Below are positions 2,001 to 19,668 of a DNA stretch of 64,000 bases, piece by piece (position 1 is the stretch's first letter; every line of letters starts with the position of its first letter). The notes below the pieces were generated by a model. The model ran no database searches and was not told the origin of the DNA. It was given only the letters and a program-made list of their open reading frames with translations. Position numbers and translations under genes: made by a program. The stretch comes from Bacteroides cellulosilyticus (GTDB taxonomy: Bacteria; Bacteroidota; Bacteroidia; Bacteroidales; Bacteroidaceae): assembly GCF_020091405.1 (NCBI RefSeq), contig NZ_CP081903.1, forward strand, positions 372,001-436,000, written 5' to 3'.

Positions 2001-3620
2001 TTAGCCTATTTGCTGCACCGCTTCCATAAATTCATCCTTGGAAAGCAAAGATTTACTCCGCACTTTCAGACGATAGTTATACACCGTCTGGGCAGAATAA
2101 TGAAGGAAGTTAGCAATCTTCCCACTATCTGTAATGCCCAATCTGATCAGAGCAAAGACGCGCAACTCGGGTGTCAGCAGTTCACCCTCCTTCGGACAGA
2201 TACGCTCATCTTCCTGAAGCAAAGTATTGAACTGTTCTATGAACTTAGGATAGAGTTTCAAGAACACACTATCGAACGTGTAGAAGAATTCTTTCAACTC
2301 ATTGGCAACAAAAGAAGAGGAATTGACAGTCTTATACAAATCATCCAATTGCCCGGTCTTGATTTTACGGGCAAGCATTTTCCGTTGTTCTTCCTGCTTG
2401 TTGATGTAGAGCGAACACATATTGAAGACGTAACCGATGTATTCTTCCTTCACCTGGTTGGACTCCTGCAACTTATCATTCAATGTATGCAGGTTTGCAT
2501 TGATATGCTTGAGCTCCTCGTTCATATCGCTCACTGCCTTCCGGGCAACGTTCAGCCGTTTCATCTGATAGAAAATGAACATCAGGGCAATCAGCAGGAT
2601 TATCAGCAGAACAGAAGTCAGGACGAACAAAGCAACCATCTGTGTTTTCTCCTGCCGCAACTTGTTCTCATAAGTCCGGCTAATAATAGGTAGCATTTCT
2701 GAAATCTCCTGTGTACGGTAGCGGGCATTACAGAATGTGGCATCCTGCATGGAACATTCTATATAGGTATAAGCACGGTTAATATCCCCTTCCTGAAACA
2801 AGAGGTTTGCCAGTTTCCAAAGAGAAATATATTCCTTCGTCGCTGCCTGAATGTCAGCGATAGCGGAAATAATCAGATACTTCTTCTGTAGTTCCGTCTT
2901 TCCCATCACACCATAAGCATTCGCCAGCCCGATGGAAGGAATAGCAACGCTATATCCTTTCTGTTTATGCGTCTCGTAACAACTGTTCAATATCCCAATG
3001 GCTTCATCGTATTTTTCTTCGTACAGAAGTTTCTCACTTTTCATCAGCAGATAGCCCTGCGAACCTGGCTTCCGGATATTGAGAATAGAATCTTTATACT
3101 GATAAGCAAGGCTCCGGTAATGATCTTTCATCTTATCGGAAAAAGCATAATCCGCCATTAACGTGTAAACCTGGTGATACTGATAATAATAGTAAGAAAT
3201 GCCGGAAGCATCCAAGTCGCTGGATTTAATGCCGTCCAGTATCTCCAGCCCTTCCTTATACATGGCCACTCCTATCATGACTTCGGCCACATTCAGTTCT
3301 GCGGAATAAATGTGAAGGGGATTCTTCATGCGCTTGGCAAGCTCCACACGCTGGTTGGCAACCCACAAGGCGGAGTCCATGCGATAAGAACGGTATTTGC
3401 CGAACAATTCGCGATAGACATCAAAGCGTTCCTGGTCCGAATGAGGCAAACGGAGTTTCCGTTGCAAAGCATCTATCTGTTCCTGGCGTTCTAATGTATA
3501 TTGAGGGCGGTTCCTGATAGACATATCAAGTACCCGAAGCAAAGAGTCTGTTTCATTGGCATAAGAATACAGGGACAGGGATACAAAGAAGACTGCCAAA
3601 ATTACTTTCAGTTGCCTCAT
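2001..3620 (-). CDS. Membrane-spanning TPR/HTH regulator, DUF6377-like
   Basis: Probably a one-component regulator that senses something in the periplasm and binds DNA in the cytoplasm. From the ATG at 3620 the protein has 539 residues: a signal peptide (MRQLKVILAVFF to SYA), alpha-helical TPR-like repeats to about residue 320, one transmembrane helix (about 327-350), a charged coiled coil (about 352-400), and a C-terminal LuxR-like helix-turn-helix (LTPELRVFALIRLGITD, then SAQTVYNYRLKVRSK). The N-terminal part resembles DUF6377. A GTG 15 bases upstream is possible, but the ATG gives a proper signal peptide. A TACTTTTG box at 3660-3667 would give a leader of about 30 nt. Its stop lies about 350 bp before the SusC start, which makes the receptor its likely target. 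Confidence 0.8.
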   Translation of the reverse strand: MRQLKVILAVFFVSLSLYSYANETDSLLRVLDMSIRNRPQYTLERQEQIDALQRKLRLPHSDQERFDVYRELFGKYRSYRMDSALWVANQRVELAKRMKNPLHIYSAELNVAEVMIGVAMYKEGLEILDGIKSSDLDASGISYYYYQYHQVYTLMADYAFSDKMKDHYRSLAYQYKDSILNIRKPGSQGYLLMKSEKLLYEEKYDEAIGILNSCYETHKQKGYSVAIPSIGLANAYGVMGKTELQKKYLIISAIADIQAATKEYISLWKLANLLFQEGDINRAYTYIECSMQDATFCNARYRTQEISEMLPIISRTYENKLRQEKTQMVALFVLTSVLLIILLIALMFIFYQMKRLNVARKAVSDMNEELKHINANLHTLNDKLQESNQVKEEYIGYVFNMCSLYINKQEEQRKMLARKIKTGQLDDLYKTVNSSSFVANELKEFFYTFDSVFLKLYPKFIEQFNTLLQEDERICPKEGELLTPELRVFALIRLGITDSGKIANFLHYSAQTVYNYRLKVRSKSLLSKDEFMEAVQQIG

Positions 3621-3659
3621 ATGGATTTCTTTCACGGTTTAACAATAAATCTTCACGGA

Positions 3660-4403: not shown

Positions 4404-5396
4404 TTAATTTCTTTCCCCTACATATATCCCTTTTTCAGAAGCAGCACTTACCCGAAAACAGCCATATACGCCACCACTTATATTCCCGGTTATTGACGAT
4501 GGAGCCGGAGTGTATGCACCGCCATCCGTACGGAACTGCTTCAACATCTGATCAAAAACATCATAACAACTCTTGGAAATGGTTTGCGCCCACACATATA
4601 CAGAATCGCTCGAATGGTCATAACCCCAGCCATTAGGATAACCAAAAGCATTCTCTCCGTCATCTACGGCAAAGTCTACTACATTCTCCTGCAAGTGTTC
4701 ATCACTTAAAACGGAATATCGCCAACGTGATTCTGCACCAAACAAAGTACCAGGTCTTGTGAATGGTTTAGCACGGGTATACGACCATGGAAAAAAAGAA
4801 AGTAAATAATAATTTTCTCCCGGAGGATTAATGAAGCTGATGCAGGGGGCAAAAGTCTCTCCCTTTTCGCCAAGATCCACTTTAGTTACCTTGAGATCAG
4901 TAATAATAAGAGCCGGTTCCATTTTCTGTACATCCGATTCAAAATGCTTACCAGCATAATATATATCTAATGAATACGAATGACCTTCAATACCATATAG
5001 CTTAGTTGTCACATACACCCCATCTGCTGCATTTTCAGATACACTATTTACATAATCTGTTTCATTCCGCTTCTTATCATAGTTATAATAGTCATAATAC
5101 ACAAAGTTTTCACGACGAGGTTTCACATATTGAAGCGTATCCCTGATACCCTCCGTAATATCTGTAATCACAATTACCGCATCATCTATTCCTTCATAAT
5201 TATAATAATCACCCCCTGTAATTGCAGCAGGCCTGGTAAGATGAAAGAAATAGGGCGGACGCTCATTAGTTACAGTACCTTCAAAAACTATTGCATCCGA
5301 AACATAGCCCGACAAATCCACATCAAACACTTTCTCACAGCCCGACATAAGCAAGACTGAGAGAACACATGAGATATAAGAAGCTGACTTTATCAT
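4404..5396 (-). CDS. DUF4249 family lipoprotein, copy A
   Basis: Outer-membrane lipoprotein of the DUF4249 family, which is usually encoded next to TonB-dependent receptors and probably helps bind their ligand. The ATG at 5396 gives a 330-residue protein with a lipobox ending LLMSGC (Cys20) and then EKVFDVDLSGYVSDAIVFEG, typical of DUF4249; the longer frame from a TTG at 5411 is unlikely. Copy B is the same gene 1024 bp upstream. The last third is nearly base-identical between the copies, while two patches (about residues 95-125 and 205-222) differ strongly. It is the last intact gene of the operon. Confidence 0.88.
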   Translation of the reverse strand: MIKSASYISCVLSVLLMSGCEKVFDVDLSGYVSDAIVFEGTVTNERPPYFFHLTRPAAITGGDYYNYEGIDDAVIVITDITEGIRDTLQYVKPRRENFVYYDYYNYDKKRNETDYVNSVSENAADGVYVTTKLYGIEGHSYSLDIYYAGKHFESDVQKMEPALIITDLKVTKVDLGEKGETFAPCISFINPPGENYYLLSFFPWSYTRAKPFTRPGTLFGAESRWRYSVLSDEHLQENVVDFAVDDGENAFGYPNGWGYDHSSDSVYVWAQTISKSCYDVFDQMLKQFRTDGGAYTPAPSSITGNISGGVYGCFRVSAASEKGIYVGERN

Positions 5397-5427
5397 AGTG
5401 TACAAGTTCAAATATATAAGTTAATTA

Positions 5428-6417
5428 TTAATTTCTTTCCCCTACATATATCCCTTTTTCAGAAGCAGCGCTTACCCGAAAACAGCCATATACGCCACCA
5501 CTTATATTCCCGGTTATTGACGATGGAGCCGGAGTGTATGCACCGCCATCCGTACGGAACTGCTTCAACATCTGATCAAAAACATCATAACAACTCTTGG
5601 AAATGGTTTGCGCCCACACATATACAGAATCGCTCGAATGGTCATAACCCCAGCCATTAGGATAACCAAAAGCATTCTCTCCGTCATCTACGGCAAAGTC
5701 TACTACATTCTCCTGCAAGTGTTCATCACTTAAAACGGAATATCGCCAACGTGAATTCGCGCCAAATAAAGCACTAGGTTTCGAGAAGGTAAAATAAATA
5801 TATGACGCAGGAAAGAAAGAAAGCAAATAATAATTTTCTCCCGGAGGATTAATGAAACTAATACAAGGTGCAAAGGTCTCCCCCTTTTCACCAAGATCCA
5901 CTTTAGTTACCTTGAGATCAGTAATAACAAGAGCTGGCTCCATTTTCTGTACATCCGATTCAAAATGCTTACCAGCATAATATATATCCAATGAATAGGA
6001 ATGACCTTCAATACCATATAGCTTAGTTGTCACATACACCCCACCAGCAGAATTCCTATATATCCCATTCACACTAGCTTCTTCCTTCCGCTTCTTATCA
6101 TAATTATAATAGTCATAATACACATGATTTTCAAAACGAGGTTTCACATATTGAAGCGTATCCTTGATACCCTCCGTAATATCTGTAATCACAATTACCG
6201 CATCATCTATTCCTTCATAATTATAATAATCACCCCCTGTAATTGCAGCAGGCTTGGTAAGATGAAAGAAATAGGGCGGACGTTCATTAGTTACAGTCCC
6301 TTCAAAAACAAGTGCATCCGAAACATAGCCCGACAAATCCACATCAAACACTTTCTCACAGCCCGACATAAGCAAGACTAAAAGAACACACGAGATATAA
6401 GAAGCCGACTTTATCAT
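5428..6417 (-). CDS. DUF4249 family lipoprotein, copy B
   Basis: Tandem paralogue of copy A, 329 residues, with the same signal peptide and lipobox (Cys20) and the same DUF4249 opening. It starts 5 bases after the stop of the TonB-dependent receptor, so receptor and lipoprotein are surely co-transcribed. Compared with copy A, the stretch after YYDYYNYDKKR reads KEEASVNGIYRNSAGG instead of NETDYVNSVSENAADG, and the stretch before SRWRYSVL reads ASYIYFTFSKPSALFGAN instead of WSYTRAKPFTRPGTLFGAE; the remainder is almost unchanged. The role as receptor partner is inferred from the family's usual context. Confidence 0.88.
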   Translation of the reverse strand: MIKSASYISCVLLVLLMSGCEKVFDVDLSGYVSDALVFEGTVTNERPPYFFHLTKPAAITGGDYYNYEGIDDAVIVITDITEGIKDTLQYVKPRFENHVYYDYYNYDKKRKEEASVNGIYRNSAGGVYVTTKLYGIEGHSYSLDIYYAGKHFESDVQKMEPALVITDLKVTKVDLGEKGETFAPCISFINPPGENYYLLSFFPASYIYFTFSKPSALFGANSRWRYSVLSDEHLQENVVDFAVDDGENAFGYPNGWGYDHSSDSVYVWAQTISKSCYDVFDQMLKQFRTDGGAYTPAPSSITGNISGGVYGCFRVSAASEKGIYVGERN

Positions 6418-6422
6418 AACTA

Positions 6423-8645
6423 TCAGAATTTAAATGTATAAGTTAAAGAAGGCACAATGCCGTAAAGATATAATTTATACATAAGAGGCTGTGCAATGGA
6501 AAAGTTTCCATTACGCCCCGCATAAATGGAAAAAACATTTTCCCTGTTATATGCATTAATGATTGAAAGGGAAAGACTCCGATTCTTCCACTTATATGTT
6601 GTGGAGAAATCCAATTGGTGAAATGCCGGAGCACGATACCCGTTTCTACCGGAATAGATATAGAATACAGAGTGATGGAAATAATATTTTCCTACCGGCA
6701 ACGTCAGATTCATTCCCGAAGCATAAGAAAAAGTAGATGACAGCGACCAATGAGAACCGATGTTCCAGTTCAGAAACAGTTTTAAATTATGCGGACGGTC
6801 ATATATCGGTTTATATTTCTCGCCATTGATATTATTTCTTGCACGCGAAAGTGTATAACTAAGCCATCCGGTCAGGGCTCCCTGATTCTTTGAAAAGTAC
6901 AACTCCAGTCCAGTCCCTTCAGCAGTGCCGCTCTCTACTTCCTTTTCAATCCGGTCATTCTGGAATATATTGGCATTTTCCACATAGTCCACCACATGGC
7001 GCATTTTCCGGATGTAAGCTTCTACTGACAAAGTATACTCTCTGTGCGGAAAGTTATATTCATAGCTAAGTGCTACCTGTCTCATAACAGATGGCTCCAA
7101 TAACGCATTGGCAGGTATCCACATGTCCGAAGGGATTCCTACCGAGGAATTTGAGAGCATATGTATGCTTTGTGCCGCCTGTGTATAAGAGACAGCTATA
7201 CGATTGGAAGGATTAAGAGTATAGGATAACTCTGCCCGCGGTTCGGGAACAACATACGTTTTTGCCCCATACGAAGAAGAGGACGGAGCATACAAAACGG
7301 ATAAACGGACTCCGGCATTCAACTGGAAACGGGAAAGGAACTTATATTCACCCTCTGCATAGAAAGCCATATCCCACAAGGCCTTTTTGGGCAAACGGGA
7401 AGGTACCACATTCGATTCATCGCCATACTTTTCTACCGAACCGGGCATAGTGGTAAAGAAGTGTACGCTTGCTCCCGTCTTCAGGCTCAAGGAGTTATTC
7501 AAATGCGTTTCCCAGTCAGACTTCAACTGATAAGACTGCATATCCGATTTCCAAAGATATTGTAATCCGTCTGCCAAAGATTTATACCTATAATAATAAT
7601 TACTGAAAACAGCACTTGTATTTATGTTAGTTCTATCATTCAGAATATGGTTCCATCTCACTGTAGCAGTGGCATTTCCCCAGTCCATACCATATCCCTT
7701 GATCAATTTATTGAAAACAGTATGGTCGCCTCCGCTATACAACGAAAAGAAAAGACGGTTACGGTCATCCAATGCCGTATTCACCTTAGCATTGACATCA
7801 TAAAACCACATCTGTGGCTTAGAGGCCAGATCACCACCTAATAAACTGAGTGTGACTCCCGGATAACCAAATCTGCCGGAAACCAGATAAGAGCCTTTCT
7901 TCAAAGGACCTTCCAGCAATACTTTAGAGGCAATCAATCCCAGACTTGCACTCCGCTTGCGCTCTTTACTATTGCCTTCGCGCATACGGACATCGATAAC
8001 CGATGAAGACCGCCCTCCATATTTCAGTGGAAAATAGGACTTATACAGGTCCACCTTTTGAATGGCATCATTATTAAATACAGAGAAAAAGGATAAAACA
8101 TGAGTAGGATTATAGACCACAGCCTCATCCAGTAAGACCAGATTCCCCCATTGATTGCTTCCTCTCACAGAAATATTGTTAGCCCCTTCATTGCCACTCT
8201 GTACTCCCGGCAAAAATTGTAAAGTCTTTATTAAATCGGGCTCTCCTCCTACAACAGGCAGGGCTTGTATCTTCTGTGCATCCAACATAAATTGTCCGCT
8301 ATGTTTTCGGGCTCCCAGTACTTCAACCCCTTTCAGCAAATAGTCATTAGGCTGCAAAGCTATATCGACCACTGCATTGCCCGATAGTTGCAATGTATCC
8401 GACCAAGTGGTATAGCCCAACATAGAACACTGAAGTACACACCTCCCCGTATGAAGGGTAATGGAATAGAGTCCGTATGCATTTGTAGCCATACCTGTAC
8501 TCGAATTCTTTTCCAGTACATTGGCATCCGAGAGAGTCTCCCCTGTTTTCGCATCCGTCACACGTCCTCGTACTATCACTTTTTGAGCAAAGGCAGTGTG
8601 CAGACAGAAAAAGAGAAGAAACAAATATACAGATAAGACTTTCAT
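6423..8645 (-). CDS. TonB-dependent receptor with carboxypeptidase-like N-terminal domain (non-SusC)
   Basis: Outer-membrane importer energised by TonB. Its 740 residues are shorter than a SusC. There is a signal peptide (ending HTAFAQ), a carboxypeptidase-regulatory-like domain (about 22-105, with GRVTDAKTGETLSDANV), a plug domain (NISVRGSNQWGNLVLLDEAV, then YKSYFPLKYGGRSSSVIDVR) and a 22-strand-type barrel to a C-terminal phenylalanine. Two DUF4249 lipoproteins follow instead of a SusD. The start overlaps the stop of the preceding DsbA-like gene by 4 bases (ATGA), which shows operon membership. The substrate is unknown; the surrounding redox and cysteine-containing proteins hint at a peptide or protein ligand, which is speculation. 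Confidence 0.9.
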   Translation of the reverse strand: MKVLSVYLFLLFFCLHTAFAQKVIVRGRVTDAKTGETLSDANVLEKNSSTGMATNAYGLYSITLHTGRCVLQCSMLGYTTWSDTLQLSGNAVVDIALQPNDYLLKGVEVLGARKHSGQFMLDAQKIQALPVVGGEPDLIKTLQFLPGVQSGNEGANNISVRGSNQWGNLVLLDEAVVYNPTHVLSFFSVFNNDAIQKVDLYKSYFPLKYGGRSSSVIDVRMREGNSKERKRSASLGLIASKVLLEGPLKKGSYLVSGRFGYPGVTLSLLGGDLASKPQMWFYDVNAKVNTALDDRNRLFFSLYSGGDHTVFNKLIKGYGMDWGNATATVRWNHILNDRTNINTSAVFSNYYYRYKSLADGLQYLWKSDMQSYQLKSDWETHLNNSLSLKTGASVHFFTTMPGSVEKYGDESNVVPSRLPKKALWDMAFYAEGEYKFLSRFQLNAGVRLSVLYAPSSSSYGAKTYVVPEPRAELSYTLNPSNRIAVSYTQAAQSIHMLSNSSVGIPSDMWIPANALLEPSVMRQVALSYEYNFPHREYTLSVEAYIRKMRHVVDYVENANIFQNDRIEKEVESGTAEGTGLELYFSKNQGALTGWLSYTLSRARNNINGEKYKPIYDRPHNLKLFLNWNIGSHWSLSSTFSYASGMNLTLPVGKYYFHHSVFYIYSGRNGYRAPAFHQLDFSTTYKWKNRSLSLSIINAYNRENVFSIYAGRNGNFSIAQPLMYKLYLYGIVPSLTYTFKF

Positions 8646-9556
8646 TCGTTTTGCAGTTCTTTATCTAAAAGTTTAGTCAGTTCTTCATAAGAATTCGTAA
8701 TATAAACCAAGCGATTATTAATTATAATGGTAGGAGTGGCAAAAAGTCCCCGTTCCATCAGTTTATCAATAGTATGGTTTACCTTATCATAAGTTTCGGC
8801 GGACAGCACATCTTGCTTATATGCGCCAACGTCCAATCCTAAAGCCCGGGCAAGGTCAAAGATATATGCAGAGTCCGGCAACGCATCATAGGAGAATATG
8901 GCATCATGAAACTCCCAGAATTTACCATATTTACCAGCCGCTTCACAAGCCAATGACGCAAGATTCGGTTCGTCGGCAAAATTAATAAAGCCAAATTTCA
9001 CCCGGTCATGGTATTTATCATAAATACGTTTCAACGTTTTCTCAAATTCAGCACAACGTTTGCAATTGAAATCTGATGCTACTATCAAATGAGTAGCAGC
9101 ATCAAGATTTCCTCTATATTGAACGCATAAATCGGCTACAACACAATTGGGCTGTTTAGGAGGATAGATATACCGCTTGATTTGTGCTCTATTAAATAGT
9201 GAATCTGCCAAATGCCGGATTAAAACACTCCGTACTCTGTTTTTGGCTAACAAATCCTCCATATATTCCTTTGTTGGATCGACCATAACACTATCAATAT
9301 AAGCATTCAGAAACTCATCAGTGAGTACTCCCCGATCAATTGCCTCATACTCTATCAATTTTTGTTTGATTAAGTCGTCCAAGGCTCTTGACTTTATTTC
9401 ATAAGCCATATTCAATAAATCGAAGGTCTCTTGGGTTGTCACCTGAGACAATTCGGATGCATAAAGCTTATGCCCGTTTATTTCTGCTACAACTTCCTTA
9501 TTACCTTTAGAACAAGAGCAGAGTAACACAGTCAGCACTAATAATACATTTTTCAT
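8642..9556 (-). CDS. Lipoprotein with SurA_N-like region fused to DsbA-like thioredoxin domain
   Basis: Probably a periplasmic, membrane-anchored thiol-disulfide oxidoreductase or chaperone. The protein has 304 residues: a lipoprotein signal (LLCSC, Cys15), a helical SurA_N/parvulin-N-like region (EINGHKLYASELSQV, then ALDDLIKQKLIEYEA; about 22-140), and a DsbA-like thioredoxin fold with the active site NCKRC near residue 165 and the cis-proline loop FATPTIII near residue 272. A C-x-x-C with a cis-Pro loop supports redox activity. It abuts the unknown lipoprotein gene (stop directly followed by ATG) and overlaps the receptor gene, so its client is plausibly the neighbouring cysteine-containing lipoprotein. 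Confidence 0.82.
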   Translation of the reverse strand: MKNVLLVLTVLLCSCSKGNKEVVAEINGHKLYASELSQVTTQETFDLLNMAYEIKSRALDDLIKQKLIEYEAIDRGVLTDEFLNAYIDSVMVDPTKEYMEDLLAKNRVRSVLIRHLADSLFNRAQIKRYIYPPKQPNCVVADLCVQYRGNLDAATHLIVASDFNCKRCAEFEKTLKRIYDKYHDRVKFGFINFADEPNLASLACEAAGKYGKFWEFHDAIFSYDALPDSAYIFDLARALGLDVGAYKQDVLSAETYDKVNHTIDKLMERGLFATPTIIINNRLVYITNSYEELTKLLDKELQNE

Positions 9557-10555
9557 TTAATTAGCCATAACCCTCCCAGGATGATACCTATTCTTATTTT
9601 TAAAATAAGAGAGATCTGTATTGAATGTCAAGCTATACCATGTATTCTTTCCGGTATTCAAACCATATTCTCCATAGAAATGATCTGATAATAAATCTTT
9701 AGTAAAGGTATTTCCGGTATATAATTTAGCCCAGTTTTTATTACTTGAGTCTTCATCATCAAAATGGATTTTTCCCATTGTCGCAAGAGGAGAACCACAA
9801 ATTACGCCATAATTTATCCGACTTCTAGGTCCAAAATTCCCACTTGCAATTGTACTCGGCACTCCCAATGCATCAGGGAAGGCCCAAGCTAAAACTGCAT
9901 TATCATCTATCTTTGTATATCCTTTAGAAATAGCCCCTTTACCATTAAATTCAAGATTTGGACTTACCACCCTATTATCAGTATGTTTATCATCACAGTC
10001 ATGATAACGAGCTACTATTTTCATCCAAGGATGATTAAAACTAAACCCCGGTCTGTAATAGTTTATATGATTAACAAGGAATACACCTCCCGGATAATAT
10101 TGACTTGCTTCCGTTAAACAAAATTTCAAACGGACATTACCATTGCTATCAATGTATGAATCTCCTATCACACCCTCTGATTTAGAATTCTGCTTTGTAT
10201 CTTCCGCATCAATATTAACTTCCAACTCCGTATAGACACCACACGAACCAATCTTAAAAACTCCTACGACATCATTAGAAGCACTGTAAACAGTTCGCAT
10301 CACTTTCTCTTTTGCAATAGAGGTACGATTCATCAACTCAGTCACATAATCATCCATAAGCTTCTGAATAGTCTCTTCATCCGCAACTGTTTCAATCTTG
10401 ACAGTATCAGCGTTTTCTTCCATTGACCTGGTTGATACTTCATAATCCGCAGCGGCCTTAGCCAACTCCATATCATTCTCTAATAAATCATAACTGTTAC
10501 TGCATGAGTAGCACGTCAACACTCCTAAAAGAGTGAATAATAAATGTTTTTTCAT
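9557..10555 (-). CDS. Unknown lipoprotein with four conserved-looking cysteines
   Basis: No family recognised. The protein has 332 residues with a lipoprotein-type signal (MKKHLLFTLLGVLTCYSC, Cys18), a charged helical stretch (about 25-95) and a beta-rich remainder. Besides the signal region it has cysteines at about residues 105, 146, 187 and 253, enough for two disulfide bonds, and the next gene encodes a DsbA-like protein. It lies between the DUF3244 gene (45-base gap) and the DsbA-like gene (no gap). It could be a surface-exposed or secreted effector, adhesin or ligand-binding protein; nothing in the sequence decides this. Confidence 0.75.
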   Translation of the reverse strand: MKKHLLFTLLGVLTCYSCSNSYDLLENDMELAKAAADYEVSTRSMEENADTVKIETVADEETIQKLMDDYVTELMNRTSIAKEKVMRTVYSASNDVVGVFKIGSCGVYTELEVNIDAEDTKQNSKSEGVIGDSYIDSNGNVRLKFCLTEASQYYPGGVFLVNHINYYRPGFSFNHPWMKIVARYHDCDDKHTDNRVVSPNLEFNGKGAISKGYTKIDDNAVLAWAFPDALGVPSTIASGNFGPRSRINYGVICGSPLATMGKIHFDDEDSSNKNWAKLYTGNTFTKDLLSDHFYGEYGLNTGKNTWYSLTFNTDLSYFKNKNRYHPGRVMAN

Positions 10556-10600
10556 GTCTTTGAATGGTTAAGCAACACCATAAGCTCTAAATTAAGTAAG

Positions 10601-10978
10601 TCAAATAGTGAAATCTCCGTATAGAATCACCTTTCCAATAGTCATCTCCAAACGGTAATTTTCTCCTCCTTGCAATAGTCCTGCCATATTCAGTACAATA
10701 TTATCCGAAGCTCCATATAGTCCTGAATAAATTACGTCATTGGTTGAAAGATTAGTCACGGAAATAAAAGCATCATCTGAGCAGTTCTCAAAATTAAGTA
10801 ATAGCAATTCATTGCTGAGATCTAAATAGGCGGAAGCAAATAAACCGGCAGAGCGTAATGTTCCATCAGAAGTAGTACTCTTCTTCAGTACAATACTCTT
10901 TCCAGACTCTTGTACAGTTGCACCTCCATTTACAAATGATAATAGAAATAAAAACAGTAATAAAGTTTTTGCTCTCAT
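10601..10978 (-). CDS. Small exported DUF3244-like protein
   Basis: A 125-residue secreted protein: a signal peptide of about 20 residues, then an all-beta domain with the DUF3244 pattern, in which AYLDLSNELLLLNFENCSD is followed by ISVTNLSTNDVIYSGL, a hydrophobic NIVLNMAGLLQGGENYRLEM segment and a terminal ILYGDFTI. Function of the family is unknown; the fold is probably an immunoglobulin-like sandwich. It is the first gene after the TPR/HTH regulator, and the gap contains the GTAACA repeat array, so it is likely the leading gene of the regulated operon. Confidence 0.75.
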   Translation of the reverse strand: MRAKTLLLFLFLLSFVNGGATVQESGKSIVLKKSTTSDGTLRSAGLFASAYLDLSNELLLLNFENCSDDAFISVTNLSTNDVIYSGLYGASDNIVLNMAGLLQGGENYRLEMTIGKVILYGDFTI

Positions 10979-11003
10979 AGGTATGTGATATAAATTATTG
11001 TCG

Positions 11004-11092
11004 CAAATAACTTAATCATTTATATAAGAACAAAAAAACATGAAGTAACAATGGTAACAATAAATATAAAACAGCAGTAACAATGGTAACAA
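11004..11092 (-). promoter_or_regulatory. GTAACA direct-repeat operator and weak -7-like box upstream of the DUF3244 operon
   Basis: The 17-base sequence AGTAACAATGGTAACAA occurs twice without mismatch, at 11044-11060 and 11076-11092. Each contains two GTAACA half-sites spaced 9 nt, giving four half-sites (11045, 11054, 11077, 11086). About 34 nt downstream, 11004-11011 reads GTTATTTG on the minus strand, a weak relative of TAnnTTTG. The layout mirrors the AAGTAGA array at the first regulator. Binding by the adjacent TPR/HTH protein is inference. Confidence 0.5.
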
Positions 11093-11115
11093 ATTGCGTT
11101 CTAAATCACTAATTT

Positions 11116-12747
11116 TCAGCAACCAAAGATTTGTTCAAACAGTTCAATATCCATTTTGGTCCTAATGCGGCTTTTTCTCATTTTTATCGCATCCGGAGTA
11201 GAGTCCATTATATCCCAAATAACATCTTTGGAGGTATTCAGAAGAGTTAAAATACAATATAATAAATCGTCATTAGTCAAGGCCGTACAACGCTCCTTAA
11301 ACCCGGCCATAACATCTATAAAGGTTCTTCGAATATCATTGATAATCTTCATCCTATAATTAGCAACTAACGAAATACGTTTTTTAGGAGATGAGTTCTC
11401 AAGTTCATATAGTTTTTTATAACCGTTAGTCGTTTTAAACAGAGATATGCAAATCTCCAATCGTTCTTCTTCCAACTTGCATAATTCTACCCCCTTATCT
11501 TCAGCTGTAGCATCAGGCTCTTCATTTAATAACATGACCTCAGTACGGTTCTTTGTTAATTGCTGTTGCAAGGATACGTATTTCTTTTGCCGGATCCTAT
11601 CACGCCACAAGTATAGTACAACCAAAATAAATACCAGACACAAAAAAACAACAACTAGGATTACAACTACCTGCTGATTTTTAACAGACAGTTTATATTT
11701 ATGCAATTCAACCAAATGATTGTCCATCAGTTCATCAAGCTCTGCACGGTCATTCATTATCTGAATAGAATCATAGAAGATTATAAAGGAATCAGCATAC
11801 AAGGTAGATTTCTCCCAATCTCTCATTCTTTTACTCTCTTGAAAAAGAGAATGATAAGATGATGTTTTAGCGTATATATTAGATGACCTTGCTCCTATAT
11901 TCCAATAATAAGCGGCAGAATCTTTCTTATTCAGATGATTCATTATATCCCCCTTAACAGAGCAAGCCGCGGTATACCCCTCACCTTCGGATAAATAAAC
12001 CAAGGCTTTCGATATACAGGTATCAGCATCTACGAATTTATTTTGTTCATTATAAAGAGTAGCCATATTTTTATATACAGCCGACACCATAGCCGAATTA
12101 TTCAAAGAAAGAGCTATGGGTAATGCCTTTTTGTAATAATAGTACGTACTGTCCCATTGTTGTCCCAATAAAAAAGCATTTGCTATATTCTTCAGATTAT
12201 AACATGTACGCAAAGAATCTCGGCCTATACACAAGGCATACGCTTCTTTATACATAGATAAGGCAGTCTTATTCAGATCCTGCTCACTATAGCAATCGCC
12301 TAAATGACTATATATCATAGATAAAAATACAGGGTCTTTTCCTTTAGGCATTATATCTAGAGCCTTCAAATAAAAATCAATAGCTGCCGGAAGCTTTCTT
12401 TGCTCCAAATAAACACAACCCAAATAGAAATAAGACTTCGCAAGTCGCTCCTGATTCTTACTGTTTCTATAATAGTCTATTGCTATCTTTATTAAGGAAT
12501 CATTCTGTACCAATATATAATTCTTATACCTCGCCTGTGTTAACAACAAACAGTACAAAGCCCGGTTTCCTTTCTTTATTTTCTGCGGATCGGATATTTG
12601 TTCAAGCAGATAAAGTGAACTGTCAGGACGCGATTGCATCAAAGAGTCAGCTGACAGTAAAATAGAATTAGCAAAATGAGAGTTATTCCTGCATGAATAA
12701 AGTAAAGGCATTATTGTCAATAAGAAAAAAGGCAAGAGCTTCTTCAT
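11116..12747 (-). CDS. Membrane-anchored TPR/HTH regulator (lipoprotein-type signal)
   Basis: Probable one-component regulator of the operon that follows it. The protein has 543 residues: a lipoprotein-like signal (LLYSC, Cys19), TPR repeats (about 60-330; for example SYFYLGCVYLEQRKLPAAID, then SHLGDCYSEQDLNKTALSMY), one strongly hydrophobic transmembrane helix (about 357-380), a basic juxtamembrane coiled coil, and a C-terminal helical domain (about 470-543) ending AIKMRKSRIRTKMDIELFEQ that fits a LuxR-like helix-turn-helix. The architecture equals that of the regulator at 2001-3620, though the two are diverged. Its stop is about 140 bp before the DUF3244 start, with the GTAACA repeats between. 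Confidence 0.8.
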   Translation of the reverse strand: MKKLLPFFLLTIMPLLYSCRNNSHFANSILLSADSLMQSRPDSSLYLLEQISDPQKIKKGNRALYCLLLTQARYKNYILVQNDSLIKIAIDYYRNSKNQERLAKSYFYLGCVYLEQRKLPAAIDFYLKALDIMPKGKDPVFLSMIYSHLGDCYSEQDLNKTALSMYKEAYALCIGRDSLRTCYNLKNIANAFLLGQQWDSTYYYYKKALPIALSLNNSAMVSAVYKNMATLYNEQNKFVDADTCISKALVYLSEGEGYTAACSVKGDIMNHLNKKDSAAYYWNIGARSSNIYAKTSSYHSLFQESKRMRDWEKSTLYADSFIIFYDSIQIMNDRAELDELMDNHLVELHKYKLSVKNQQVVVILVVVFLCLVFILVVLYLWRDRIRQKKYVSLQQQLTKNRTEVMLLNEEPDATAEDKGVELCKLEEERLEICISLFKTTNGYKKLYELENSSPKKRISLVANYRMKIINDIRRTFIDVMAGFKERCTALTNDDLLYCILTLLNTSKDVIWDIMDSTPDAIKMRKSRIRTKMDIELFEQIFGC

Positions 12748-14528: not shown

Positions 14529-15701
14529 TCATCTTCTGCGACGTCCGAACAAGTCCTTTATCCCATCCAAATCAAAACCTAACGTAAAACGAAGTGTCTG
14601 GTCGAGCGGATTACTTTGTGCCGTAGATACCAGATAAGCAGCATCCAACGAGAATACGCTCATCTTGAATCCTGCACCAAAAGAAAAATATTTGCGGTTT
14701 CCTTTGTTCTCATGTTCCCAGTGATAACCGCCACGAATGGAGAACTGTTCGTGATAAGTATATTCCAATCCCAAAGACCACTGTATCTCCTGCAATTCTT
14801 CCTTGAAGCCACCGGGAGCATCACTGAAAGACTTAAAGATCCCCTTAATGGGAGAAATATCATTATAATCACGGTCCAAACGTTCTTCATACTCTTCCTG
14901 AGACTCATCTTCTCCACGAACAGGACGGGTAGGAACCATATACTTATTGGCATCAAAACTAACTCCGATTGTATTATAATCATCTATCGGGAATAACAGG
15001 GAAGCACCCAAACGTAAGTTGGTAGGCAAGAACTGACTGGTATTACCACTATCATAAGAAATCTTCGTACCGATATTGGAAGCATTCAGCCCGAAAGAAA
15101 GCATACACTCCCGTTGGGCAAGTATGACGTAATTCGTATAATAGAAGGCAATATCGGCAGCAAAAGCAGAGCCGGCGGAAACGTCTTCATCTTCCCTGTA
15201 CGCCAAGTCAGAATAAATGTATCGCAAGGCAACCGCAGCAGAGAAATGTTCGGAAAGCATACGGGAGTACGCCACATCTACCGCCATTTCATAAGGTTTA
15301 ATGGTATATCCGGGAGAATTCTCATCCTGATACGCTACGGGCACTTCACCCAAAGAGAAATAACGCAAAGAGCCGCTGACAGCCTGATAATCTCCGATAC
15401 GGTAGTAGCCTGCCAGATATGCCAGATCAATATCATTCACCAACTTGCGCAACCAAGGTGTATAGGAAACCGCTACTCCGGCACGGCTGATCGTAAACGG
15501 ATACTTAGCCGGATTCCAGTATTGAGAGTTTACGTCCGGATCTGTAGCCGCACCCACATCTCCCATACCACCGCCACGGGAGTCAGGGGCAATACCCAAA
15601 GAGTTAACACCGGTATTAACGGGATTAAACTGATTCTTGTCCTGGGCAAGAAGGTTTGCGGACAAGAAGGCTATGAGTAAGAGTAAGATAGATTTCTTCA
15701 T
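14529..15701 (-). CDS. porV: Type IX secretion outer-membrane protein PorV
   Basis: Outer-membrane beta-barrel of the PorV/LptO family (FadL-like), which carries type IX substrates to the PorU sortase on the cell surface. The protein has 390 residues with a signal peptide (ending ANLLAQ) and the family opening PVNTGVNSLGIAPDSRGGGM, then GDVGAATDPDVNSQYWNPA. Barrel-type alternating strands run to the C-terminus. It follows porU on the same strand after 130 bp containing a strong inverted repeat. The pairing with PorU is the classical arrangement. No other type IX genes are in the window. Confidence 0.9.
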   Translation of the reverse strand: MKKSILLLLIAFLSANLLAQDKNQFNPVNTGVNSLGIAPDSRGGGMGDVGAATDPDVNSQYWNPAKYPFTISRAGVAVSYTPWLRKLVNDIDLAYLAGYYRIGDYQAVSGSLRYFSLGEVPVAYQDENSPGYTIKPYEMAVDVAYSRMLSEHFSAAVALRYIYSDLAYREDEDVSAGSAFAADIAFYYTNYVILAQRECMLSFGLNASNIGTKISYDSGNTSQFLPTNLRLGASLLFPIDDYNTIGVSFDANKYMVPTRPVRGEDESQEEYEERLDRDYNDISPIKGIFKSFSDAPGGFKEELQEIQWSLGLEYTYHEQFSIRGGYHWEHENKGNRKYFSFGAGFKMSVFSLDAAYLVSTAQSNPLDQTLRFTLGFDLDGIKDLFGRRRR

Positions 15702-15715
15702 ACAATATCATTTAA

Positions 15716-15796
15716 TTTTTCATCCGCAGATAACACAGATTTAAAAGCTATGCAAAAGAATATCCGCATAATCTGCGTCATCTGCGGATGAAAAAT
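15716..15796. repeat. Inverted repeat (ATCCGCAGAT family) between porU and porV
   Basis: Arms of about 26 bases (15716-15741 and 15771-15796) pair with two mismatches; the core word is CATCCGCAGAT. It fills most of the porU-porV gap. This looks like a REP-type palindrome; it could act as an attenuator or mRNA stabiliser between the two genes, but has no poly-T tract for a classical terminator. Confidence 0.65.
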
Positions 15797-15831
15797 ATCT
15801 TTTATACTAATAAAACAGAAAATCCCCCTGT

Positions 15832-18800
15832 TTATTGTGACAGGATAATGATTTTCTGTGATTTCGTACTTTCGCGACTACCGTCGGAGACAATAGATGC
15901 ACGATACAGATAAACACCCGGTGCCAGACGTTGCCCGCCATTACTGCACAAATCCCATTCCACATAATAAGTTTGTCCTTCAGATACTCCCTTCTCCAGA
16001 TGTGTCCACATTTCCCGTCCGGCAAAATCGTATACGGACATACGGACCGCAAGCGTGGAACCGGGGCGATTGTGAGAAAGAACGAATGTAGTACTTTCAC
16101 GGGCAGGGCTCTGTGTACAAATAACAGAGAACAGACCGGGACGCAATCCGCGAACCACCTCAAACTCCAAAGTCTTTGTAGAGGAATTATTCAGCAAATC
16201 CCAGGCACGGAACGACAACGTATGTTTGCCCTCAGTGAGTTCGGGCACAGAAAAGTATACCGTTCCCCGGGTATAGTCTCCCGCTACCGGAGTATAATAA
16301 TCATTCAGATTATAAGTCAGCACCGCACTGCCGTCAATACAAAGTGAAAGATCATGCCCGATGCCATTACCAACCGTATTGATACCATCCGCATCTTCCA
16401 ATTCCGCCACAAACAACGGGGTGGTATTGGTTTGTCCACCGGGACTAAAGTCCGGCGTATTCAGATAAACGGTTATCTTAGGTCCTAATGTGTCCGTCAG
16501 AGAAACACCATCATCCGTTCCACCCACCAGGAAGCGGTCGAAAGCTCCACCGGCTTCATGAGAATGAACGGCATCCAGAGCATAAAGGCTCAATAAACCT
16601 TCCTCATCGGAATAGTTGATATCCAACGGCACGGGGAAAGTAAATTCAAACCGTCCCTGACGAACCGAGTCACTGCCGGAGAAAAGAGTTTTGCTGCGCT
16701 CGGTATAAGTGAAAGCTCCCTCATCACGATTATCAAGAGTCGTCACTTCTTCCTTACTATCCAACACTGTAGGATGCACTGTACCGGTAAAGTCTTCAGC
16801 CAAAGCTCCCTCGGGAGTCAGGATACGTCCTTTTACTGTAATCTTGCTACCGGCTTTCACCTGCGGATAGACGCTCGTTTCTTCTGCCACATTCACACCC
16901 GCAAATTCGTCTACCTGCACCTGGTAATCGGGATATGCCAAAGTCAGGGCAGGGTCGCCAATCAGAGAGAAGTTCAGTTTATTCCTATCGTTAGCCAAAG
17001 ATTCATCGCACTTGGAAAGCCGCATGATGTCTCCAAGACGCAAACGTTTACCTTCGGGACGCGAAAAAATATGACGGAGGAAAGCCTGATTCAACGTGGA
17101 GTTTTGCGAAGCATATACCACCCGCGATGTAGTGAGTAAAGCTATAGCACCACCTTTAGTATTCAGGAAAGCCTGCTCTCCGGCAGAAGTTTGTATATCA
17201 TCAAAACGGGTAAAGTCACAGGTGGCGGTAATCCATAGAGGAAGGCGGGGAGACGTCATTTTAGTGATGTCAGCCATCGTCAGCAGATTCTCTGCCGCCC
17301 ATGCAGAAGTACTTCCATGACCTGTATAGTTGACTACCAACATTCCCCTGTTAAATAACTGCAAGAGGCGCTTCGTAGCATCAGGATAAGTTTCTCCGGT
17401 AGCGGAAGATTCACGATGGAAAGCATCGGCATAGATCCGGTTGACAAGCAGAGAAGGATAATTTCTCTCGGTGTAGCTTGCCAATAATTCAGATTGAGAA
17501 GCATGCATATTCTTATCTCCGTCATCAGCTACATAGCAAACTGTATGTTTCCACGGACCCGCCTGTTTATTTTCCATATAAGCAATTGTCTTATCTACAG
17601 CAGCTTTTGCCTCAGCCGCCGTACGAACGGGGAAACGTCCGATGCCAATATCCAACATACCGGTTGTAAGATCATCACCTTCTTCATCATCCAGAAAGCC
17701 GAAGTAATCGTCAGTTACATAGGAAGAAGTCTCTTCCAAAGAAGCTTCCGATTGATAAGATAGCAGAAAGTTTTCAGGCCGGTAACTCTTCCAGGAAGAA
17801 GTCAGCATACGATTGTCGTAGCTGCAATCTCCGAAGAATAACAGGTATTTGGGACGTTCAGCTTCATTCGGAAAGCGATCATACAACATCTTCATCAGAC
17901 GGCGATAAGCCGTTCCATCCGGTGTACCGGAGGAAAACTCATTGTAGATTTGCGGAGCGGTAAGGACAAGGACGGACAATCCGTCTTTCTCACGATGGGC
18001 TTGTGCCAGTCGTTCCGCCTGTGCCAGCAGGTCTTTCCGGTCGGGAGCAATGATAATCATATCCGTAGCTTCCAGAGAATGCAGATTCTGGTTCGCAACC
18101 CCACCTACGTTTTCCACTGTATCAAAGCCTCCCGCTTCGGGAGTGATGGCAACAAACTCACGCAACTCTCCTGCGGGAATGGTAAATGTATAGGTGCCAT
18201 CAGCAAAACTGCCTTCTATCCTGCCAATGTTTGCAGGATTGGTTACATCCCACACAACAGTAGAAGCTGTGGCACCGGAAAGAACGAACGTCGTCTCCTT
18301 ATGAATGGAAGCCAAAGAGCGAAAAGTGAGATAAGGAGTGTTCAACGTAAGTGCACGCATATAGTTTAAGGCGATGTAATCCAGACGCCCCGATGTACCC
18401 GAAGGGCGGGTATGGGTGATGGTTACAACTGTATTTTCCGACTTAGTCCCTTGCCAGGAGCCATTCATCGTTGCAGAAGTAGCTCTGGTATAATATTGAT
18501 TATCGGAATCGATGGATGCCAGTGCGATGTTTCCTTTCTGTTCACCGTTCACTGAAACAGAGTAGCTGGTAGACGCATCAATGGAGCGGGCGGCAAAGAC
18601 AGTAGTCAACCATCCGGCAGCTTCCGGCACAATGCCCGGCAAGTTCAGCGTATAACTTTTCGTATTTCCGGCCACATAGTCATAATCTTCATAAAGCTGC
18701 CTGCCGGTACCTGCCCAACTATATGCATCTTTTTCATAGATAGCAAAGGAATTGAAAGTCGTCAGTCTGTTGGCCGAGGTCTCTTTCAAGGAAGAGAATA

Positions 18801-19668
18801 TTTCAGTTTCCATTTCCGGAATATCCTCCCGATCAGTCAGGAAGTAATACCCTTCATCGGAGTAGAAGTTGCGCTCGCGGACAAAGTAAGTATTTTGGCT
18901 ATCCGGCGTCCAGGATACAGTGCCACGACCATAAAACAACACACCATCTGACAAACGCAACAAAGGCACTTCGGGTAAGTCAGCTGCCGGATGTTCATTG
19001 AAACGTTGGGACAGCAAATAACCGCCATAACCAAATACGCGGACTTTTTCGGGTCTTGAGAATCCCATCTTTTTTAATTCGGCATTCGTGATTTTAAAGA
19101 CTCCGGTATTTCTCACACTTATCTTCGTCCAACGGCCGGAAGCAAGAAGTGATGTTGTACAATCCTTTAGAGGTACTTCGGATAAAGTTGTTTTCAGATT
19201 TCGGGTAGCTGTCTCCTCTCCCATTTTATCTTTCTTAGGAAAAGAATTCACGGATAGTTTGAAAGAATTCAGCCGTTGATAACTTCCTTCACGAAAAACA
19301 ACAGGAACAAAACTTATGGAGAGAAAACCGCGGTGTGTGGAGACCTTGATGGAAGAGTTTATCTGTGGAGATGCCGGCAAGCCTTCCCGGAAAGCCACAT
19401 TTTCATTGGGTAGCTGACGTAAACTGTCGAGTCGCATCTCCAATGCTGCCACCTCACTCCGGTTTAATTTCTGATATTCCGGAAACTCTATTTCCACCTG
19501 ATAGGTAAAGGAACGGAAGTTGGTCCCCAAAGGGAGTTCACGCGTCACTACGGGAAGCGTCTGTGCAGGAGACAATTCCTGCCAGTTCAGCGTAATGAAT
19601 TCTTGCGCTGAAACCGGAAGAAGAAAAGCGATAAAGCAACAAAGCAACCAGCAACGTTTGATAAACAT
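15832..19668 (-). CDS. porU: Type IX secretion sortase PorU (gingipain-like C25 peptidase)
   Basis: Surface cysteine peptidase that in type IX systems removes the C-terminal signal of cargo and attaches it to lipopolysaccharide. The protein has 1278 residues: a signal peptide (ending PVSAQ), long beta-rich N-terminal domains, a C25 catalytic domain with histidine in VNYTGHGSTSAW (about 782) and cysteine in WITATCDFTRFDD (about 816), beta-sandwich domains, and a C-terminal type-A signal-like domain with APGVYLYRASI and a KIIILSQ end. The length and the PorV neighbour favour PorU over a secreted gingipain. Confidence 0.9.
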   Translation of the reverse strand: MFIKRCWLLCCFIAFLLPVSAQEFITLNWQELSPAQTLPVVTRELPLGTNFRSFTYQVEIEFPEYQKLNRSEVAALEMRLDSLRQLPNENVAFREGLPASPQINSSIKVSTHRGFLSISFVPVVFREGSYQRLNSFKLSVNSFPKKDKMGEETATRNLKTTLSEVPLKDCTTSLLASGRWTKISVRNTGVFKITNAELKKMGFSRPEKVRVFGYGGYLLSQRFNEHPAADLPEVPLLRLSDGVLFYGRGTVSWTPDSQNTYFVRERNFYSDEGYYFLTDREDIPEMETEIFSSLKETSANRLTTFNSFAIYEKDAYSWAGTGRQLYEDYDYVAGNTKSYTLNLPGIVPEAAGWLTTVFAARSIDASTSYSVSVNGEQKGNIALASIDSDNQYYTRATSATMNGSWQGTKSENTVVTITHTRPSGTSGRLDYIALNYMRALTLNTPYLTFRSLASIHKETTFVLSGATASTVVWDVTNPANIGRIEGSFADGTYTFTIPAGELREFVAITPEAGGFDTVENVGGVANQNLHSLEATDMIIIAPDRKDLLAQAERLAQAHREKDGLSVLVLTAPQIYNEFSSGTPDGTAYRRLMKMLYDRFPNEAERPKYLLFFGDCSYDNRMLTSSWKSYRPENFLLSYQSEASLEETSSYVTDDYFGFLDDEEGDDLTTGMLDIGIGRFPVRTAAEAKAAVDKTIAYMENKQAGPWKHTVCYVADDGDKNMHASQSELLASYTERNYPSLLVNRIYADAFHRESSATGETYPDATKRLLQLFNRGMLVVNYTGHGSTSAWAAENLLTMADITKMTSPRLPLWITATCDFTRFDDIQTSAGEQAFLNTKGGAIALLTTSRVVYASQNSTLNQAFLRHIFSRPEGKRLRLGDIMRLSKCDESLANDRNKLNFSLIGDPALTLAYPDYQVQVDEFAGVNVAEETSVYPQVKAGSKITVKGRILTPEGALAEDFTGTVHPTVLDSKEEVTTLDNRDEGAFTYTERSKTLFSGSDSVRQGRFEFTFPVPLDINYSDEEGLLSLYALDAVHSHEAGGAFDRFLVGGTDDGVSLTDTLGPKITVYLNTPDFSPGGQTNTTPLFVAELEDADGINTVGNGIGHDLSLCIDGSAVLTYNLNDYYTPVAGDYTRGTVYFSVPELTEGKHTLSFRAWDLLNNSSTKTLEFEVVRGLRPGLFSVICTQSPARESTTFVLSHNRPGSTLAVRMSVYDFAGREMWTHLEKGVSEGQTYYVEWDLCSNGGQRLAPGVYLYRASIVSDGSRESTKSQKIIILSQ

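Follow-up and report, generated by a model that had tools for sequence, protein, structure and literature searches.

Several described systems pair a TonB transporter with a surface lipoprotein, among them BtuB-BtuG and XusA-XusB, whose ligands are vitamin B12 and ferric siderophores (available portions of PMC10404256 and PMC13142918), and Price et al., cited in the available part of PMC11003636, have proposed that TonB receptors pair with DUF4249 lipoproteins. In Bacteroides thetaiotaomicron, the TPR protein BT3442 and BT3441 belong to a MACPF cluster (excerpts of PMC2954219). Here, we describe a seven-gene operon of Bacteroides cellulosilyticus that has elements in common with these systems. 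It lies in a window of 64,000 nucleotides, i.e., positions 372,001–436,000 of contig NZ_CP081903.1 (RefSeq assembly GCF_020091405.1; 6.94 Mb in one contig), where it runs on the minus strand from 12747 to 4404. By sequence statistics, the operon reads as three joined modules: a head formed by a TPR regulator and a DUF3244 protein; a lipoprotein, X, with a putative folding factor, S; and a TonB-dependent receptor with tandem DUF4249 lipoproteins. The same statistics bring out a candidate operator, a linkage between X and S, an exchange of X for another lipoprotein, Y, and distinct N-terminal signals of S and DUF4249.

The seven open reading frames (ORFs), all on the minus strand, and the successive gaps of 45, 0, −4, and 5 bases 3′ of the DUF3244 gene were reproduced as given in the initial annotation, and the two DUF4249 genes are spaced by 16 bases when the listed TTG start is used. 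A Pfam scan of the operon proteins yielded TPR_12, DUF3244, Thioredoxin_4 with DSBA, CarbopepD_reg_2 with Plug, and DUF4249 twice, in agreement with the families assigned earlier. Among the seven genes, Pfam and NCBIfam scans revealed no carbohydrate enzyme, no C39-peptidase ABC exporter, and no radical-SAM enzyme, and a scan for sigma-70 promoters and terminators gave no excess over shuffled sequences.

The reading that we favor, with a probability of about 0.5, is an operator-controlled capture-and-import operon in which S folds X, and X and DUF4249 act at the surface with the TonB receptor. For DNA binding, the oxidation of X by S, the surface position of X, and import, we infer the following course. 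The SusR-like one-component regulator would sense something via its periplasmic TPR domain, and its cytoplasmic C-terminus would bind tandem TGTTACCATTGTTAC sites and turn on the operon starting at the DUF3244 gene. S, facing the periplasm, would hold X and form the conserved disulfide C105–C146, and X would subsequently operate on the cell surface, next to the TonB transporter. The tandem DUF4249 lipoproteins would be alternative lids of this transporter, and X, the transporter, and DUF4249 would jointly capture and import the ligand, for which peptide uptake is only one possibility.

Lipoprotein X (9557..10555, minus strand; 332 aa) matches no Pfam family and consists of N-terminal helices and a C-terminal β-domain (residues 93–332), which contains three D-x-[ED]-D motifs and the invariant residues C105 and C146. 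After the lipobox cysteine, X has cysteines at positions 105, 146, 187, and 253, of which only 105 and 146 are kept in 29/29 aligned homologues. The AlphaFold2 model of X has a predicted local distance difference test (pLDDT) value of 79.5, and the β-domain alone reaches a pLDDT of 90.8 and a predicted template modeling score of 0.91. When the three D-x-[ED]-D segments were compared as profiles, the probabilities were 85, 61, and 22%, which are only suggestive of internal repeats. A protein database of ~5.8 billion sequences holds 50 relatives of X, or 62 with a wider profile; none of these 62 contains a Pfam domain, and the few source names shown are "hypothetical protein". No solved relative was found by sequence, the best E-value of 1.5 being chance-like. 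X was also considered as a MACPF toxin, a candidate rejected on the lack of a PF01823 match, and comparison with toxin families gave no convincing match, with one of 29 members touching Ntox11 (E 0.042).

Matches to X occur in 9 of 158 Bacteroides genomes, in 10 of 393 Bacteroidales genomes (its own included, three weak), and in one of 395 Bacteroidota genomes, where five candidates per genome were scored. Twenty distinct X loci, including L012 and L013, were examined, with the weak N-terminal matches in G507, G480, and G575 omitted. At one of them, X is partial and S is split into two frames (L041); at L009 of B. faecis (10001–10775), X is truncated and only the end of S is left, and TonB and DUF4249 are intact.

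S (8642..9556, minus strand) is a lipoprotein in which a SurA-like region at the N-terminus is joined to a DsbA/Thioredoxin_4 domain. Its CXXC motif (C165–C168) and T274–P275, at the cis-Pro position, are invariant in six aligned homologues, and the second half of the S profile matched DsbA-related proteins with solved structures. SurA_N_3 scores 21.3 in the window protein, below the cut-off of 27.2, and of four homologues scanned only that of L114 exceeds it (28.8). Both domains therefore appear to be supported, DsbA by the structure matches and SurA_N by L114.

The association of X with S is close: 19 of the 20 X loci have S, or a remnant of it, in the gene run that contains X, the exception being L042, a 65-residue X remnant with stops. 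X and S are separated by one or two DUF4249 genes in L041 and L050, and by two or three small secreted proteins, judged by eye to be barrel-like, in L045, L047, L048, and L049. Over the 36 non-independent pairs from 9 complete loci, the X–S identity correlation is the highest of six gene pairs, with a Spearman coefficient of 0.86 versus 0.50–0.60 and a Pearson coefficient of 0.92 versus 0.80–0.87. An initial scan of the genome contigs with S as query gave no match, and S was detected at E ≤ 1e-15 in 15 of the 393 Bacteroidales genomes, its own included, four of which match the DsbA part only. Matches of the latter kind (G032, G871, G873, G875, G459, G687, G631, and G406) were left out of the S loci; neither X nor a TonB-DUF4249 pair was seen in the neighborhood of G032.

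With the S profile, five additional loci that carry a complete or partial S but no X were recovered from the same 393 genomes. In one, S lies at the contig end (G476:C688), and in all four with a visible neighbor (L114–L117) the gene before S encodes another lipoprotein, Y, with 5–8 cysteines in all. None of the three Y proteins scanned has a Pfam family, and a LytTR protein is encoded upstream at three of the four loci. L114 and L117 continue with TonB and DUF4249 genes, L116 has a DUF4249 fragment at the contig end, and L115 has neither; in L117, Y is cut by the contig end and S is in two frames. Only the signal peptides of X and Y could be aligned by profile comparison (74%, 30 columns), and the two proteins are accordingly taken to be unrelated. 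S thus stands beside two unrelated cysteine lipoproteins, as a dedicated oxidase would.

The N-termini of these lipoproteins differ in the number of acidic residues after the lipid cysteine. At least two acidic residues at positions +2 to +6 are present in 12/13 DUF4249, 4/4 Y, and about 10/26 X sequences, versus 0/16 for S and 0/8 for the regulators; these are distinct N-termini, counted after sequences without a lipobox were dropped (5/45 X, 1/23 S, and 1/23 DUF4249). According to the available part of PMC5080379, an acidic export signal marks surface lipoproteins, the proposed signals being SDDDD in B. fragilis and C-X-K-(D/E)2-X in Capnocytophaga. These counts therefore predict that S is periplasmic and that DUF4249 and Y are at the surface.

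The TonB-dependent receptor (6423..8645, minus strand), with CarbopepD_reg_2 and Plug domains, is not a member of the SusC family, since TIGR04056 does not match it but does match the window receptor at 1–1797. Copy a of DUF4249 (5428..6417, minus strand), a candidate transporter lid, begins with the acidic N-terminus CEKVFDVDL. Copy b (4404..5411, minus strand) is 93% identical to it in DNA, with the differences in two patches, which might, as a guess, be alternative ligand-facing loops; the same tandem pair is found in the relative L037. Elsewhere in this genome, the remaining two DUF4249 genes are likewise located behind a TonB receptor. TonB and DUF4249 are both present at 12/20 X loci, with DUF4249 on the opposite strand in L046. 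Outside Bacteroides, the set of X, S, TonB, and DUF4249 recurs with varying gene order at six loci (L011, L012, L013, L044, L046, and L050), L011 and L044 being from the same genome.

The regulator (11116..12747, minus strand; Pfam TPR_12) starts with a lipobox-like N-terminus, followed by TPRs, a single transmembrane segment (residues ~362–384, read off the sequence), and a C-terminal SusR-like region. A profile of 11 such regulators aligned with the SusR-family protein of the window over 295 columns with a probability of 93%, spanning the TPRs, the membrane span, and the C-terminus. NF058541, the NCBIfam equivalog for SusR, did not match the regulator, which scored 107.5 bits against the BT3442 family NF053779, far under the cut-off of 940. 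The small secreted DUF3244 protein (10601..10978, minus strand) scores 31.6 bits with PF11589 (cut-off 25) and has a solved relative, 3sd2 (E 4e-4). Another entry, PDB 3d33, is presumably a DUF3244 protein.

All eight DUF3244 genes of this genome that exceed the Pfam cut-off lie within 0.8 kb downstream of a regulator homologue on the same strand; seven are directly behind it, and at L079 a 207-codon ORF intervenes. A survey of 60 Bacteroides genomes listed 120 DUF3244 matches, 114 of them over the cut-off, including the eight above. Forty regions were examined, mostly from the top of this list, some already examined or close to loci of the present genome being skipped; they contain 41 DUF3244 genes, and a regulator is directly upstream of all 41 (40 by script and L185 by tblastn).

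Two copies of TGTTACCATTGTTAC, 32 bp apart (11077..11091 and 11045..11059, minus strand), form the candidate operator. The window regulator shares this word with its 52%-identical paralogue at L075, and words close to it precede the DUF3244 genes of L075, L009, L010, and L038. Exact 7-mer direct repeats with a period of 9–12 bp occur in the regulator–DUF3244 gaps of 18/45 non-redundant regions, compared with an average of 1.0 and at most 5 in 200 dinucleotide shuffles and with 1/55 control same-strand gaps. The period counts peak at 11 (12) and 9 (5). Omitted from this count were gaps of <60 or >300 bases (L156, L173, L185, and the 759-base L079 region) and five near-duplicates among 50. The idea of repeats came from 12 regions seen first, nine of which carry them; in the 33 regions outside this set, nine have repeats, whereas 500 shuffles averaged 0.8 and never exceeded 4. 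A looser test (8-mer, one mismatch) is much weaker, with 20/45 versus 11/55 controls and a shuffle mean of 6.5. Inspection by eye showed TTGTCC or CTGATTATCA in wider arrangements in some of the regions that lack close repeats. In a set of 22 repeat-bearing modules, the period and a 5-mer are common to 25/25 pairs with C-terminal identity of at least 35%, a threshold read off the bins with close pairs included; a 5-mer is common to 14/19 pairs at 25–35% and to 66/187 below 25%. The repeat word thus tracks the C-terminal domain of the regulator and is a likely operator.

Judging by what lies downstream, the regulator and DUF3244 form a general head of many unrelated operons. In the present genome, heads precede this operon, an Rhs-repeat protein (L075), and a lipoprotein pair (L078). 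At L076 (10383–16420), a head with four TCGTACAA repeats at 11–12 bp is followed by a C10 peptidase gene and a MACPF gene, and at L077 (9383–15263) and L079 (4118–17778) heads stand ahead of radical-SAM and C39-exporter genes, which are likely loci for ribosomally synthesized and post-translationally modified peptides (RiPPs). Directly after DUF3244, L078 (15128–16678) and L080 (3573–5111) encode two 44%-identical proteins, each combining C39 peptidase-like and VKOR domains, with a weak thioredoxin match in L078 only. Behind the 41 other heads, phmmer searches with a gap limit of 400 bases assigned 10 to peptide export or maturation, two to MACPF, one to C10, three to other reference families, and 25 to none; Pfam adds a C10 gene at L172, one of the 25, and an Rhs match at L180 is outside the limit. 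Ten further downstream proteins showed mixed or no families, including a TolB-like propeller and an O-antigen ligase-like protein. The available text of PMC10352776 notes TPR genes in two Bacteroidales RiPP clusters, and that of PMC10434189 places BT2221, a DUF3244 gene of B. thetaiotaomicron, near the DsbA-family gene BT2225, possibly a similar locus.

The initial annotation had taken the seven genes for one system containing a candidate membrane sensor-regulator, a redox folding factor fusing SurA_N to DsbA, a lipoprotein with four cysteines, and an importer with a non-SusD lipoprotein partner. The profile comparison with SusR and the candidate operator agree with the first of these, and the Thioredoxin_4/DSBA domain, CXXC, and cis-Pro position of S with the second; for the fusion itself, Pfam confirms the DsbA part, and SurA_N_3 stays below its cut-off here and passes it only in the L114 homologue. 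The four cysteines are present beyond that of the lipobox, and the operon lipoproteins match DUF4249 or no family. A coherent, conserved gene set is likewise recovered, and the homologues are not scattered or rarely adjacent, as S or its remnant accompanies X at 19/20 loci. A single, fixed seven-gene system did not hold, given that the head precedes many unrelated operons, TonB and DUF4249 can be absent, and X is replaceable by Y.

More broadly, and quite tentatively, the regulator and DUF3244 could be a reusable signaling cassette of Bacteroides, in which secreted DUF3244 would be sensed by the periplasmic TPR domain of the SusR-like activator, as its ligand or as a feedback partner, and each regulator lineage, with its own direct-repeat operator, would drive its own surface or competition operon. 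As part of the same tentative proposal, the operon described here would be built around a disulfide-bonded lipoprotein without recognized relatives plus a lidded transporter. If true, the sequence from regulator lineage to direct-repeat operator to operon would provide a readable rule for many uncharacterized Bacteroides loci, including those for peptide export and MACPF proteins, and their triggers would therefore become testable.

Several observations weigh against the capture-and-import reading. The C-terminal piece of the regulator alone aligns with SusR at a probability of only 8%. Exact 7-mer repeats at period 9–12 are lacking in 27/45 head gaps and in 24/33 of the independent ones, so the operator form is not universal, and the threshold of its identity relationship was chosen from the bins themselves. 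The acidic export signal of X is weak in the window (CSNSYDLLE), and neither a ligand-processing enzyme nor an inner-membrane importer is present in the operon. Moreover, TonB and DUF4249 are absent at 8/20 X loci (L014, L039, L040, L042, L045, L047, L048, and L049; the contigs of L047 and L048 measure 6.6 and 4.0 kb, and L042 is only an X remnant), and X can therefore probably work without this importer. Because of these transporter-less loci, the ambiguous location of X, and the competition flavor of several sister operons, antagonism keeps a substantial minority of the weight. Under this less likely but serious rival, S would fold X (or Y), which would be secreted or kept at the surface as an antibacterial protein or another effector; TonB and DUF4249 would represent the target receptor in the form found in the producer, or a linked immunity function, and the head would be shared with other competition loci. 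The C10-MACPF, radical-SAM/C39-exporter, VKOR-C39, and Rhs operons behind heads of this genome, the comparable cargo among the 41 further heads, and the TPR protein BT3442 in its MACPF cluster are consistent with it, as is the finding that the BSAP-class antibacterial proteins of Bacteroidales are lipoproteins of the cell surface (available part of PMC12853789). However, the 25 of 41 heads without any reference family mean that the head is not a proven sign of competition, X has neither a MACPF match nor a convincing toxin match, cassettes without this head (L011–L013) retain the TonB-DUF4249 pair, and no separate immunity gene was recognized.

The transporter might instead work outward and assist folded X or Y in crossing the outer membrane; the requirement for Oar in the secretion of PopC by Myxococcus is a precedent (excerpts of PMC6434023). 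The transporter pair is indeed kept while the lipoprotein beside a dedicated folding factor is swapped between X and Y, but X occurs without a transporter at eight loci, and a Bacteroidetes-wide route for surface export of lipoproteins has already been proposed (available part of PMC5080379), which makes outward transport very improbable. A loose neighborhood of three independent units sharing only a promoter or a place, with S serving envelope proteins generally, would fit the finding that every module also occurs without the other two. Yet, X, S, TonB, and DUF4249 are again found together, in different orders, at the six non-Bacteroides loci, and S is rare among Bacteroidales genomes, so this explanation is considered unlikely, if less remote than outward transport.

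A separate Sus-like locus abuts the operon, comprising a SusR-family regulator (2001–3635; NF058541, 613 bits, cut-off 480) next to the SusC-type receptor (1–1797), both on the minus strand. On the other side, an aspartyl-protease-like protein (PF13650, PF13975; 12976–14463, plus strand) is divergent from the regulator and also adjoins the operon in L037. Just past the operon, PorV (528.6 bits, cut-off 250) and the sortase PorU (1180.4, cut-off 420) of type IX secretion are encoded at 14529–19668 on the minus strand.

In the literature searched, no description was found of an operon that combines a TonB transporter with a dedicated disulfide folding factor and with cysteine lipoproteins that can replace one another. 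The operon has a SusR-like membrane regulator, a TonB receptor, and surface lipoproteins in common with Sus-like polysaccharide utilization loci. It contains no SusC or SusD family member and no carbohydrate enzyme, however, so that a standard locus of this kind, already rejected in the initial annotation, is ruled out. In the BT3442–BT3433 region of B. thetaiotaomicron, a TPR protein is likewise beside a homologue of PDB 3d33, BT3441 (excerpts of PMC2954219), but the cargo consists of predicted trefoil and MACPF proteins instead of X, S, TonB, and DUF4249, and the window regulator is far below the BT3442-family cut-off. Unlike the oxidases of the BdbD/DsbA type, with which it shares the Thioredoxin_4/DsbA domain, CXXC, and the cis-Pro position, S is fused to a SurA-like region, is a lipoprotein, and is tied to a neighboring cysteine-lipoprotein gene. 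Relative to BtuB-BtuG and XusA-XusB, DUF4249 takes the place of their lipoproteins. The import module resembles the BT2172-BT2173 type, in which a TonB receptor also adjoins a DUF4249 lipoprotein taken to be a lid; here, the receptor has a Plug domain, and DUF4249 is a candidate for the lid role, present in tandem copies and accompanied by a disulfide folding factor and the extra lipoprotein X.

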